Source: an uncultured Alphaproteobacteria bacterium
GTDB lineage: Bacteria > Pseudomonadota > Alphaproteobacteria > Rhodobacterales > Rhodobacteraceae
DNA: 53,323 nucleotides
Direction: 5' to 3'
NCBI GenBank assembly: GCA_902537215.1
Contig: CACBAM010000014.1
Coordinates: forward strand, 1 to 53,323
In this document: positions 3,658-11,895 of the stretch, piece by piece
Position numbering within the stretch: position 1 is the first letter of the stretch
How the letters are laid out: each line of letters starts with the position of its first letter
The notes under the pieces: generated by a model
What the model saw: the letters and a program-made list of their open reading frames with translations, nothing else
Database searches by the model: none
What the model was told of the DNA's origin: nothing
Program-made: the position numbers and the translations under genes

Positions 3658-4518
3658 TTACAAAGTTTTTTGAAGAGGCTTTACTGGTGTTAGACGTTCT
3701 GCCTGACTTCTAACGATTTTGATCAATTCAACTTCACCGGGGCATGAGGGAATAGAAGCTATAGCTCCAGCCAAAATGTCTTGAAGCCTTTTAATCGCAC
3801 CTTGCTCTCCAAGCTTTAAAACAGCGTTAGGGCGCTCATTTTCGCTATCTCTGTTATTCGATTTACCACTTTTTTGAGGGTCAGAAAAGTCCTTCAAATC
3901 GTCAGCAACCTGAAACGCCTCACCTATTCTCTGCCCGAGCTCGGCCCATGGCTCTGGATCTTCGCCTGCAGAAATTGCCCCCATTTTTGTAGCCGCGACG
4001 AACAATGAGGCCGTTTTGAGTTTATGATATGAACTAAGATCAATCGTTTTTTCACTTTCCCAACCTTGACCTGAACAGATACCATAGGGCATACCCGTTG
4101 ACGTTGTTAAAACATTTATCAACTCGCCAAGCCTGGCAGGAGCGCTTATGCCTTTAGAAGTAAGCACTTGAATTGCTAAAATAATAAGAGAATCTCCACA
4201 TAGAACAGCTAGAGGCTCATCAAAGGCCTTATGAACAGTAGGCTTACCCCGCCTAACCTCCGCATTATCAAATGCTGGCAAATCATCATGCACTAAACTG
4301 GCGCAATGCATCATCTCGACTGAAACCGCTGATGCCATTGAGAGATCAACATTATCTAACCCACACGCATTGGATACAGCAAGGCAGAGCTGAGGCCGCA
4401 CTCTAGCACCGCCTGGAAAGATTGCATAATCCATCGCCGCAGCCAATTTTGGCGGAGCAGGCGATCGACTCGCATTCTCAATTGCCTTTTTCAGTGCCTC
4501 TTCTAACTTTTCTCTCAT
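3658..4518 (-). CDS. crtE: Geranylgeranyl diphosphate synthase (carotenoid pathway)
   Basis: CrtE is a trans-prenyltransferase that makes C20 geranylgeranyl diphosphate, the precursor of carotenoids and of the bacteriochlorophyll tail. The 286-residue protein carries the first aspartate-rich motif in VHDDLPAFDNAEVRRGKPT (about residues 95-113), the GGARVRPQL substrate-binding segment near residue 36, and the second aspartate-rich motif QVADDLKDFSD near residue 198. The ATG at 4518 has AGGA about 7 bases upstream, and a PpsR-type palindrome begins immediately behind that ribosome site. It is divergent from crtD. Confidence 0.95.
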   Translation of the reverse strand: MREKLEEALKKAIENASRSPAPPKLAAAMDYAIFPGGARVRPQLCLAVSNACGLDNVDLSMASAVSVEMMHCASLVHDDLPAFDNAEVRRGKPTVHKAFDEPLAVLCGDSLIILAIQVLTSKGISAPARLGELINVLTTSTGMPYGICSGQGWESEKTIDLSSYHKLKTASLFVAATKMGAISAGEDPEPWAELGQRIGEAFQVADDLKDFSDPQKSGKSNNRDSENERPNAVLKLGEQGAIKRLQDILAGAIASIPSCPGEVELIKIVRSQAERLTPVKPLQKTL

Positions 4519-8498: not shown

Positions 8499-10097
8499 TT
8501 AAACCTGCATTACTTTCTTATTGGTATGATAGCTTGCTTTATTGGCAACCTTTTTCAAATCTGGAAGAATCTCATCTAATATTTCTGCAGATGCAAGAAC
8601 ACCCGGCAATCCCGGCCCAGGATGAGTACCAGCTCCAACAAGAAAGAGATTATCAAGCTCTTCTGATATATTGTGAGGTCTAAACCAGGCGCTTTGAAAC
8701 ATTTGAGGTTCCAAGGAGAAACCACTTCCAAAATGGCTCAAATATCTTTCTTTAAAATCAAGGGGGGTCATAACATACTCGGTTTTTATTAATCGGCCCA
8801 GCCCAGGCAAAAGTCTTCTCTCTAAAACATCAAGTATTTTTGTCTTATAGCTTTTTTCAATGTCACGCCAGTGAATATCATTCTTAAAACTTAGGTTTGG
8901 AACGCAAGCCAATACATAAAAAGTATCGTCTCCTTTTGGAGCACAAGTTTTGTCAGTAACAGAAGGTCTATGTACATATAAACTCATTTCCTGAGGCAAC
9001 TCCCCTTTTATAAAAATATCATTAACCTCTTTTTTATAATTGGGTCCCACCAGAATTGTATGATGTCCAACATTCTTCCACTTTGATCTCGTTTTTGACG
9101 TGCCAAAATGCCAAACAAAGAGACTCATTGACCAATTCTTTGCGTCTAATTTATGTTTGGTCCACCTTTTCTTCTTTTGGTGCCCTAATAAACTATCGTA
9201 TGTATTCTGGAGATCTGCGTTTGACACTACATAATCCGCACTAATTTTTTCTCCAGTCTCCAACTGGACCCCAATTGCTCTGTTTTCTTTTGTTAATATT
9301 TTATTAACTGTTGTATTGAGTGTTACCTGACCTCCTGAGGATTTTATTTTTTCTGCCATTTTATTCGCCATGGCTTGAGCTCCCCCGTGAATATAGTAAA
9401 CACCGAATCTATGCTCCAAATAATTCACTAATCCCCACATGGAAGTAACAGTAAAGGGATTCCCACCTACAAAAAGTGGATGGAAACTTAACGCAAACCT
9501 TAGCTTGGAGTTGGATACATAGCTCGCTGCACTTCTATAAACTGACCTATCTGCTCTTAGAAGAGCAAAAATTGGAAGTACCTTTAGAGTATCCCATAGT
9601 CTATGCATGGGACTTCTTCCCATTGAGCCTTTTTTTGAAAACGCAAAATTATATTGCCTTTCTGACAAACGCATGAACTTTCGATATCCTTTAAGATCAT
9701 CCGGTGCAAATTTTTTAATTTGAGCCTCAAAATTTGATTTGTTGCCAGAAACTGAAAGAACATCATTATCTTCAAATATCAAATCATAATATGGGCTTAG
9801 CTTTTCTATTTTTACATGTTGACTTAGATCATCCCCACATCTCTTCCAAAGTTCTTCAAAGTTTTTTGGTAAAGTCAAAATCGTTGGACCTAGATCAAAT
9901 CTATGTCCTTTTTGAGTTTTGGATGACCCGCGACCACCAACATTTTGCAATCTATCAAAAACTTTGACATGGTACCCTTTTTCAGAGAGAAGCATTGCCG
10001 CAGACAAGCCTCCAAACCCTGCTCCAATAATAGCAACAGAAGTCTTTTCCACTTCTCTCTCACCATTAAAGTACGTTTCGTCGGTCTTTTTTAACAT
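8499..10097 (-). CDS. crtI: Phytoene desaturase
   Basis: CrtI performs the successive desaturations from phytoene to neurosporene/lycopene, an FAD enzyme at the membrane surface. The 532-residue protein shows the N-terminal fold VAIIGAGFGGLSAAMLLSEK (about residues 21-40), NVGGRGS, and the C-terminal LFLVGAGTHPGPGLPGVLAS signature. About 20 charged residues precede the FAD fold; the ATG at 10097 is the only conventional start. It leads the crtI-crtB-tspO transcript and is divergent from crtA across a short gap with one PpsR-type palindrome. Assignment as CrtI rather than CrtD rests on its partner crtB. Confidence 0.94.
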   Translation of the reverse strand: MLKKTDETYFNGEREVEKTSVAIIGAGFGGLSAAMLLSEKGYHVKVFDRLQNVGGRGSSKTQKGHRFDLGPTILTLPKNFEELWKRCGDDLSQHVKIEKLSPYYDLIFEDNDVLSVSGNKSNFEAQIKKFAPDDLKGYRKFMRLSERQYNFAFSKKGSMGRSPMHRLWDTLKVLPIFALLRADRSVYRSAASYVSNSKLRFALSFHPLFVGGNPFTVTSMWGLVNYLEHRFGVYYIHGGAQAMANKMAEKIKSSGGQVTLNTTVNKILTKENRAIGVQLETGEKISADYVVSNADLQNTYDSLLGHQKKKRWTKHKLDAKNWSMSLFVWHFGTSKTRSKWKNVGHHTILVGPNYKKEVNDIFIKGELPQEMSLYVHRPSVTDKTCAPKGDDTFYVLACVPNLSFKNDIHWRDIEKSYKTKILDVLERRLLPGLGRLIKTEYVMTPLDFKERYLSHFGSGFSLEPQMFQSAWFRPHNISEELDNLFLVGAGTHPGPGLPGVLASAEILDEILPDLKKVANKASYHTNKKVMQV

Positions 10098-10112: not shown

Positions 10113-10130
10113 TGTCAGTTTTTTTTGACA
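10113..10130. promoter_or_regulatory. PpsR/CrtJ-type operator between crtI and crtA
   Basis: The 18-mer reads TGTCA, 8 bases, TGACA: the full extended form of the PpsR/CrtJ consensus and the best match in the window. It lies 15 bp in front of the crtI start and about 55 bp in front of the proposed crtA start, so a bound repressor could affect both divergent units. Confidence 0.8.
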
Positions 10131-10184
10131 ATATTTTTAATAAAAAATATGCTTTGAATTGAATAAGCCATTTTGGAGTAGATA

Positions 10185-10889
10185 ATTAAAACAATTACCA
10201 TAAGTTTTTTTAGGTTCCAGTCCATATTTGGCAAACTATGGGCTTTTTCACATATGGGGTTTTCACATCTATATATGAGAAGGATGAAAGGCCTGCAATT
10301 TTATAAACTTTTTGGAAGTGGTGTTGGGGAAGGCTTTACCCCTGTATTAAACCCTAATGTTTATGCTATCATGGCAGTATGGGATAGTGTAACCGATGCG
10401 GATCAAAACATAACAAACTCATCAATTTTCAAAAAATATAAAAATAGATCAAAAGAAAGTTGGACACTATATCTAAAACCTACCAGATCTTGGGGCAGTT
10501 GGGATAAAAGAAACCCGTTTGAAATAACTGATAATCTTAGTCAAACATTTCCTGTAGTAGCACTCACAAGAGCAACAATAAAAACGAGTATCCTTTTAAA
10601 GTTTTGGAAAAGAGTGCCAGATATATCAAAAACAATTGGGCTCAATAAAAATGTTTTATTTAAAATCGGCTTAGGAGAAATTCCATGGTTTCACCAGGTC
10701 ACCTTTTCAATATGGCCAAATCAGGAAAGCATGGATCAATTTGCTAGAAATCATGGGCCTCACAAAGAAGCCATCAAAGCTGTAAGGGAAAATAATTGGT
10801 TTAAAGAGGAACTCTATGCAAGATTTGCAATAGACAAACAAATTGGGCGATGGCCAGAAATAAACATAAATAAGGAAACAAGTGAATAA
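10185..10889 (+). CDS. crtA: Spheroidene monooxygenase, probable ATT start codon
   Basis: CrtA inserts the keto group that turns spheroidene into spheroidenone under oxygen. Family blocks include FYKLFGSGVGEGFTPV, VFKIGLGEIPWFHQVTFSIW and the C-terminal ENNWFKEELYARFAI. The first ATG (10254) would remove about 23 conserved residues. Upstream of it the frame stays open and reads KTITISFFRFQSIFGKLWAF, matching the known N-terminus MQTVTLSIFRF. The codon at the methionine position is ATT (10185), 6 bases after GGAG (10175-10178); the next in-frame codon upstream is ATA and then TAG. I therefore annotate an ATT start giving 234 residues. The gene heads crtA-bchI-bchD-bchO and overlaps bchI by 8 bp. 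Confidence 0.93.
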   Translation: MKTITISFFRFQSIFGKLWAFSHMGFSHLYMRRMKGLQFYKLFGSGVGEGFTPVLNPNVYAIMAVWDSVTDADQNITNSSIFKKYKNRSKESWTLYLKPTRSWGSWDKRNPFEITDNLSQTFPVVALTRATIKTSILLKFWKRVPDISKTIGLNKNVLFKIGLGEIPWFHQVTFSIWPNQESMDQFARNHGPHKEAIKAVRENNWFKEELYARFAIDKQIGRWPEININKETSE

Positions 10890-11895
10890 GTATTTTCCAT
10901 TCTCAGCAATAGTTGGACAAGAACAAATGAAACTTGCTCTGATTTTGACAGCAATCGATCCATCAATTGGCGGCGTACTAGTTTTTGGAGATCGAGGCAC
11001 TGGGAAATCAACCATAGTTAGATCGCTCGCGGGATTATTACCAAAGCAAAATTTTGTAATAGATTGTTCCTTTAATTGTCAGAATTCATTTAATCTATGC
11101 GATCAGTGTAAAAAAAAGAAGTCTCTTGAGTTTGAAGAACGTTCAACCCCTGTTATAGATCTTCCCTTGGGGTCAACGGAAGACAGAGTTGTTGGAGCGC
11201 TAAATTTAGAAATAGCGTTGACTGAGGGTAGGAAAGTATTTGAGCCGGGCTTACTAGCCAAAGCAAATAGTGGCTTCCTATATATAGATGAGGTCAACTT
11301 GCTAGAGGATCATATCGTTGATCTGCTTTTAGACGTTGCCGCATCAGGAGAGAACCTAGTCGAAAGGGATGGAATATCAATAAGACACTCATCAAAGTTT
11401 GTCTTAATTGGTTCAGGGAATCCCGAAGAGGGTGAACTCAGACCGCAGCTACTTGACAGATTTGGTTTCTCAGTAAATGTAGGTTCTCCCTCTGAAATAT
11501 CACAAAGAATTGAAGTGATTAAAAGAAGAGATGAATTTGAAAGAGATCCTCAAAGTTTTTTACGGAAGTGGAGACGGAAAGATTTAACAGTTCAAAAAAA
11601 AATAATTCATGCAAAAAATACTCTAGATAATATTAAGCTTGACGATGGTATTTTATCAAAGTGTGCTGAAATTTGTATCGCGGTGGGCTCTGATGGATTG
11701 AGGGGAGAACTAACACTTTTGAGGGCTTTAAGAGCACTCTGTGCGTTTAATGGATTAACAAGGCCCACTTTAGAGGATATTAGAGAGATAGCTATTTACA
11801 CTCTTAGCCATAGACTGAGAAGGGATCCATTGGATGATACAAGTTCAGAGGTGCGCGTGAAAAGAAAAGTCAATGAACTTATAGATGGCACATAA
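10882..11895 (+). CDS. bchI: Magnesium chelatase ATPase subunit I
   Basis: BchI is the AAA+ motor of magnesium chelatase, which inserts Mg into protoporphyrin IX at the start of bacteriochlorophyll synthesis. The sequence shows Walker A FGDRGTGKST (about residues 33-42), the BchI insertion with EERSTPVIDLPLGSTEDRVVG, Walker B FLYIDEVNLLEDHIVDLLLD (about 131-150), and sensor-1 and arginine-finger regions (IGSGNPEEGELRPQLLDRFG). It starts with GTG inside the crtA stop context, with AGGA upstream, and overlaps bchD by 11 bp: both junctions suggest translational coupling, fitting the stoichiometric BchI-BchD complex. Length is typical at 337 residues. Confidence 0.96.
   Translation: MNKYFPFSAIVGQEQMKLALILTAIDPSIGGVLVFGDRGTGKSTIVRSLAGLLPKQNFVIDCSFNCQNSFNLCDQCKKKKSLEFEERSTPVIDLPLGSTEDRVVGALNLEIALTEGRKVFEPGLLAKANSGFLYIDEVNLLEDHIVDLLLDVAASGENLVERDGISIRHSSKFVLIGSGNPEEGELRPQLLDRFGFSVNVGSPSEISQRIEVIKRRDEFERDPQSFLRKWRRKDLTVQKKIIHAKNTLDNIKLDDGILSKCAEICIAVGSDGLRGELTLLRALRALCAFNGLTRPTLEDIREIAIYTLSHRLRRDPLDDTSSEVRVKRKVNELIDGT

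Follow-up and report, generated by a model that had tools for sequence, protein, structure and literature searches.

In the analyzed stretch of DNA from a marine bacterium, herein referred to as the window (53,323 nucleotides), translation of the crtA gene, encoding spheroidene monooxygenase, almost certainly starts at the AUU codon at position 10185, as judged from sequence comparison. The full explanation favored here is likely: it comprises this AUU start and a weak, IF3-sensitive initiation that would limit CrtA. The following features of the crtA region are used below.

8499..10097, minus strand: crtI, the divergent neighbor of crtA, with an ATG start.
10113..10130, plus strand: putative operator TGT-N12-ACA of the PpsR/CrtJ type, assigned by sequence motif.
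10125..10153, plus strand: promoter-like sequence TTGACA-17-TATGCT, matching 10 of 12 consensus bases, with an ATG (10149) inside the -10 hexamer.
10175..10178, plus strand: GGAG, the Shine-Dalgarno core, six bases before the ATT, assigned by sequence and by its presence in all 12 crtA loci of the genus.
10179..10181, plus strand: in-frame TAG closing the crtA frame upstream, shared by nine (L001-L009) of the 12 loci of the genus.
10185..10187, plus strand: probable ATT start codon of crtA, assigned by its start-type position behind the Shine-Dalgarno sequence, conservation in the genus, position 1 of the NF045923 model, and the behavior of this column in 175 loci.
10185..10889, plus strand: crtA, spheroidene monooxygenase, assigned by NF045923 (325.2 bits against a cut-off of 300, for the frame from 10182).
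10254..10256, plus strand: first in-frame ATG of crtA, rejected as the start on the NF045923 score and the predicted structure.
10882..11895, plus strand: bchI, with a GTG start, overlapping the end of crtA by 8 bases.

The crtA 5' end in the window and in its genus

The crtA frame (10182-10889, plus strand) begins immediately 3' of the TAG codon (10179-10181), and its first codons are ATA (10182), ATT (10185), AAA, and ACA. The earliest ATG, GTG, or TTG in this frame is the ATG at 10254, which corresponds to residue 24. The original prediction gave the spacing between GGAG and the ATT correctly as six bases but placed the stop codon four bases further up; the TAG actually begins six bases before the ATT, with the ATA codon between them. 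Its estimate that 23 residues would be lost with a start at ATG 10254 agrees with the numbering of the frame, and the conserved CrtA N-terminus that it described upstream of this ATG is seen both in the genus alignment and in the match to NF045923.

The crtA gene was searched for in 61 genomes, 22 of them belonging to the genus of the window. It was found in 16 genomes, 12 of which, including the genome of the window itself, are among the 22 genus genomes. In the alignment column of ATT 10185, herein referred to as the start column, the 12 genus loci have ATT (11 loci) or ATC (one locus, L009), and GGAG is kept before crtA in all of them. The close relatives thus agree with the predicted codon, none of them having ATG. 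Because ATT or ATC is found in 12 of 12 loci, a sequencing or assembly error at ATT 10185 is excluded. In the window and in L002-L010, the frame is free of ATG, GTG, and TTG from the upstream stop up to where the conserved CrtA N-terminus begins. Two further loci of the genus, L011 and L012 (genomes G008 and G021), have an in-frame ATG 13 codons before the ATT of the start column. Four members of the family from outside the genus were found in the same search (L013-L016), all with ATG in exactly the start column.

Two other codons of the window were considered as starts. A start at ATG 10254, with the 23 upstream codons untranslated, would use the earliest ATG, GTG, or TTG of the frame and is nevertheless very improbable. 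The frame from 10182 scores 325.2 bits with the NCBI model for CrtA (NF045923), above its curated cut-off of 300, and the protein from ATG 10254 scores 296.1 bits, below it; position 2 of the model aligns with the Lys after the ATT, and the model begins at the ATT codon. In the AlphaFold2 prediction for CrtA (17 sequences; mean pLDDT 81, pTM 0.81), the first strand comprises residues 3-10 and the first helix residues 14-31, with a mean pLDDT of 89 for residues 1-10 and 88 for residues 11-20. According to this model, a start at ATG 10254 would remove the first strand and part of the first helix. No GGAG-like sequence was seen by eye before 10254. Synonymous differences in codons 2-23 are common in every comparison made, a ratio that alone is no strong test: 6 synonymous and 3 nonsynonymous differences were found between L001 and L010, and 7 and 8, respectively, between L001 and L011, vs. 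23 and 16 in codons 24-80 of the latter pair. The second candidate, the ATA at 10182, is less probable still. ATA is also a rare start codon and occupies the start column in 4 of the 175 crtA loci analyzed below, but the ATA of the window lies only three bases from GGAG, and the codon at this place varies in the genus (ATA in 8 loci, TTA in 2, ACA and CAC in one each), whereas the next codon is always ATT or ATC.

For the CrtA model, a fold search gave ferredoxin-like monooxygenases with a TM of about 0.35 and aldoxime dehydratases with a TM of about 0.55. A search of solved structures by the CrtA sequence gave no match, and Pfam returned DUF3291 alone, under its cut-off.

Other hidden starts were sought by comparing the window with stretches of two relatives. 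As read here, only crtA clearly has an extended conserved segment ahead of its first ATG, GTG, or TTG. Most of the remaining frames flagged in this comparison resemble shadow frames of opposite-strand genes. Three frames, at 3680 (minus strand), 4545 (minus strand), and 14803 (plus strand), have some conservation before the first ATG, GTG, or TTG in comparison with G018 or G008, which may reflect gene overlap, close relatedness, or further unusual starts. As for the distribution of the gene itself, only 12 of the 22 genus genomes have crtA, and it is lacking in G001, which is 90% complete; the genomes without crtA may have lost the photosynthesis cluster or may be incompletely assembled.

Distribution of crtA start codons in the family

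Across the family, 394 genomes were searched, and 164 of them have crtA. The 5' end was read in 151 of the 164, comprising 30 returned loci (L033-L062), 118 loci fetched by place (L071-L188), and L014-L016; 13 low-scoring genomes without a listed place were left out. Eleven further loci of the genus, six named genome records (L026-L031), and eight plasmid records were added, a homologue from Lacihabitans (L032) was excluded, and identical 5' ends were merged. The resulting set contains 175 distinct 5' ends of crtA, almost all of which belong to members of the family.

The start column holds ATT in 48, ATC in 17, and ATA in 4 of these 5' ends (69 in total), ATG in 48, GTG in 6, and TTG in 3 (57 in total), and other codons in 49. 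Of the interpretation given in the original prediction, AUU as the start has strong comparative support. The implied rarity of such starts is wrong for crtA, where they recur across the family. In 36 of the 69 ATT/ATC/ATA loci, no ATG, GTG, or TTG is present between the start column and the in-frame upstream stop. The remaining 33 have a canonical codon farther 5' in the open frame, at a distance of up to 12 codons in 20 loci and a greater one in 13; in the 20 and, to a lesser degree, in the 13, translation may in principle begin at such a codon. A reduced set of 150 distinct loci, nearly one per genus, was obtained by dropping the plasmids, the named records, and every genus locus except that of the window. 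It includes 54 loci with ATT/ATC/ATA, 25 of them under the strict condition of no canonical codon up to the stop, 55 loci with a canonical codon in the column, and 41 others. Hence, about a third of this nearly one-per-genus sample starts crtA at AUU, AUC, or AUA.

The start column does not behave as a position of ordinary isoleucine. Among the 175 5' ends, no codon with a middle T other than ATT, ATC, ATA, ATG, GTG, and TTG was found in it. For 41 of the 49 loci with other codons, an ATG, GTG, or TTG is located one to three codons upstream of the column, the distance being a single codon in 35; the corresponding counts for the ATT/ATC/ATA group are 3 and 1 of 69. In the eight exceptions among the 49, the canonical codon is 5-10 codons upstream in five and 14 codons upstream in one, and the remaining two (L165 and L169) have an ATG two codons downstream of the column. 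The ATT/ATC/ATA counts are 48/17/4 vs. 17/41/10.5 expected from the other isoleucine codons of the same genes. None of 20,000 simulations reached this excess of ATT, the loci being treated as independent, which they are not fully. The excess persists when only loci with a GC3 of more than 0.7 are counted (38 loci: ATT 24, ATC 12, ATA 2).

The neighboring genes served as controls, under criteria looser than those of the crtA count, since a canonical codon was accepted anywhere in the open frame upstream for crtI and within 25 codons for bchI. Canonical starts were found in all 163 crtI loci with a readable motif (the motif was absent in 12 of 175) and in all 42 readable bchI loci; 133 of 175 were without the bchI motif, many of them because the fetched stretch was too short.

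Across the class, 385 genomes were searched and 5 had crtA; three of these 5 lie outside the family. Two of the three loci have ATG in the start column (L199 and L200) and one has TTG one codon before it (L198); thus, no ATT, ATC, or ATA start was found in this sample of three from outside the family. The eight plasmid-borne crtA genes of Rhodobacterales (from 10 matches) are annotated from ATG, GTG, or TTG and therefore supply no annotated ATT case. The survey suggests that crtA is mis-annotated wherever gene finders accept only these three codons. Literature searches listed no paper on the crtA start codon, as far as openly accessible articles go; the first publications of the crtA sequence lie outside this scope. 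Distant homologues of CrtA, with 31-37% identity, were also observed outside the proteobacterial phototrophs, on plasmids of Deinococcus taeanensis (NZ_CP083459.1) and Nonomuraea gerenzanensis (NZ_LT559118.1) and in Lacihabitans (L032).

Initiation signals and a possible limit on CrtA

The TGT-N12-ACA sequence is the motif of PpsR/CrtJ (PMC10890935), and the putative operator at 10113-10130 overlaps the -35 box of the putative crtA promoter. Within about 150 nucleotides 5' of crtA, this motif occurs in 172 of 175 loci vs. 4 of 175 after one shuffle, and 114 loci have two or more such sites. In some relatives, one PpsR-type site is located within about 20 bases of the crtA start codon. Transcription of crtA would begin some bases past 10153; we therefore propose that the leader is short and that the ATG of the -10 box is absent from the message. 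This ATG (10149) was rejected as a start of crtA, being within the -10 box; in the window, moreover, its frame reaches a TGA two codons later. The in-frame upstream ATG of L011 and L012 was also rejected, being located inside the same -10 box. The predicted RNA structure of the crtA leader has nothing unusual (z -0.72).

The spacing between the Shine-Dalgarno sequence and the start is 6-8 bases in 59 of the 69 ATT/ATC/ATA loci. Mean predicted pairing of this sequence is -7.36 kcal/mol in these 69 loci vs. -4.93 kcal/mol in the 48 loci with ATG in the column (p = 1.7e-6), eight loci whose start near the column is unclear being excluded. With relatedness allowed for, in 27 pairs, pairing is stronger at ATT/ATC/ATA in 17, weaker in 8, and tied in 2 (sign test p = 0.11, Wilcoxon p = 0.017). 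The 19 pairs with a canonical codon in the column itself give 10 stronger vs. 7 weaker, and the pairs on well-supported branches are only six, too few for a test. Compensation of the ATT/ATC/ATA start by a stronger Shine-Dalgarno sequence is thus suggestive only.

The GGAG six bases upstream would place the 30S subunit on AUU 10185, where the ordinary initiator tRNA would read AUU with a third-position mismatch. Initiation at this codon would be weak and IF3-sensitive, so that CrtA output would reach only part of the level permitted by the PpsR-type promoter. CrtA makes spheroidenone, a carotenoid accumulating with oxygen in Rhodobacter (PMC7074977), and reduced CrtA would limit the conversion of spheroidene to spheroidenone. 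By analogy with known AUU starts, we infer that AUU would throttle CrtA and make it IF3-sensitive. The AUU start probably lowers CrtA output; that low output is what selection keeps has a little under an even chance. Weak initiation of crtA might affect bchI as well, given the overlap between the two genes.

A different decoding of AUU, by a second initiator tRNA with a changed anticodon, is very unlikely. Screening for anticodon stems of the initiator type, with the first anticodon base left free, did find GGGCTAATAACCC in 8 of the 22 genus genomes, but the one site read in context (L232) lies inside a protein-coding frame, read as a TRAP transporter. ARAGORN found no tRNA in eight scanned loci, five of them holding GGGCTAATAACCC and representing five of those eight genomes, and AUC and AUA also serve as crtA starts in relatives. 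In the genome of the window, neither the normal nor the changed initiator anticodon stem was matched, its own initiator tRNA gene not being seen. In the same genome, ATC is the sole suitable start codon of infC, the gene for IF3 (G000:C4:149715-150209, L189); it follows AAGGAG, and no ATG, GTG, or TTG comes before it in the frame. Among the 22 genus genomes, infC was found in 13, with ATC (11 loci) or ATA (2 loci) at the start place; 8 of the 13 have an ATG seven codons further in. IF3-dependent control of infC is therefore plausible in the genome of the window, and crtA would share its signature.

The AUU start may instead be near-neutral, a strong Shine-Dalgarno sequence and a non-limiting product letting the codon drift between AUG and AUU, AUC, or AUA. 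This alternative has a substantial probability, though somewhat short of even. On a quick LG+G4 tree of the 175 sequences, at least 29 switches of the start trait are needed, and ATG occupies the column in many relatives that fare well, so that crtA has no need of a weak start. On the other side, ATT or ATC is retained in all 12 genus loci, ATT is preferred over ATC in the crtA column, crtI and bchI, where readable, have no such starts, and the 29 changes are fewer than shuffled labels need on the same tree (mean 54.9, minimum 46; 100 shuffles). The recurrent switching fits selection for low CrtA and a weakly constrained start codon alike. That crtI and bchI lack such starts and that the genus retains them throughout speaks for a cause specific to crtA but is no proof that low CrtA output is the selected trait. 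A broader proposal is doubtful: that the near-cognate start is selected family-wide and ties carotenoid ketolation, and perhaps Mg-chelatase via bchI, to initiation capacity, i.e., IF3 level and growth rate. If true, it would add to anoxygenic photosynthesis a layer of translational control gained and lost many times. The natural AUG versions in relatives make crtA a ready-made evolutionary experiment on why weak starts persist.

Comparison with known near-cognate starts

AUU, AUC, and AUA starts are usually regarded as curiosities of few genes; crtA is a further case of this known class, and an unusually widespread one. In Escherichia coli, the AUU start codons of infC, encoding IF3, and pcnB limit expression (PMC13009471). 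The AUU start is common to these genes and crtA, but infC is autoregulated by its own product, whereas crtA encodes a pigment enzyme. In Staphylococcus aureus, near-cognate starts are described for infC (AUA), cvfC1 (AUU), and ccpN (AUA), and AUU or AUA with a strong Shine-Dalgarno sequence gives about 10% of the AUG level in poor medium; in rich medium, up to 30% was reported for one gene, with no effect of the medium for the AUU gene (PMC13009471). Like crtA, the S. aureus genes have conserved near-cognate starts and strong Shine-Dalgarno sequences, and cvfC1 is also the first gene of its operon. Their starts were shown by ribosome profiling and reporters, whereas that of crtA is assigned by comparison only, and the crtA start codon, unlike theirs, switches often between relatives.

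The pncA gene (BBE22) of Borrelia burgdorferi starts at AUU and encodes an enzyme 24 residues longer than its annotation (PMC13398362). It resembles crtA in being an enzyme extended at the N-terminus, with the N-terminus needed for the fold (PMC13398362). The abstract on pncA presents a single-species case and describes no family-wide recurrence (PMC13398362), whereas the crtA start recurs. The short isoform of AerR in Rhodobacter capsulatus starts at an internal Leu codon, CTG (PMC6199135). As in crtA, an unusual initiation codon is used in a photosystem-related gene of a related bacterium; the CTG of aerR yields a second isoform, whereas the ATT of crtA is the only fitting start.
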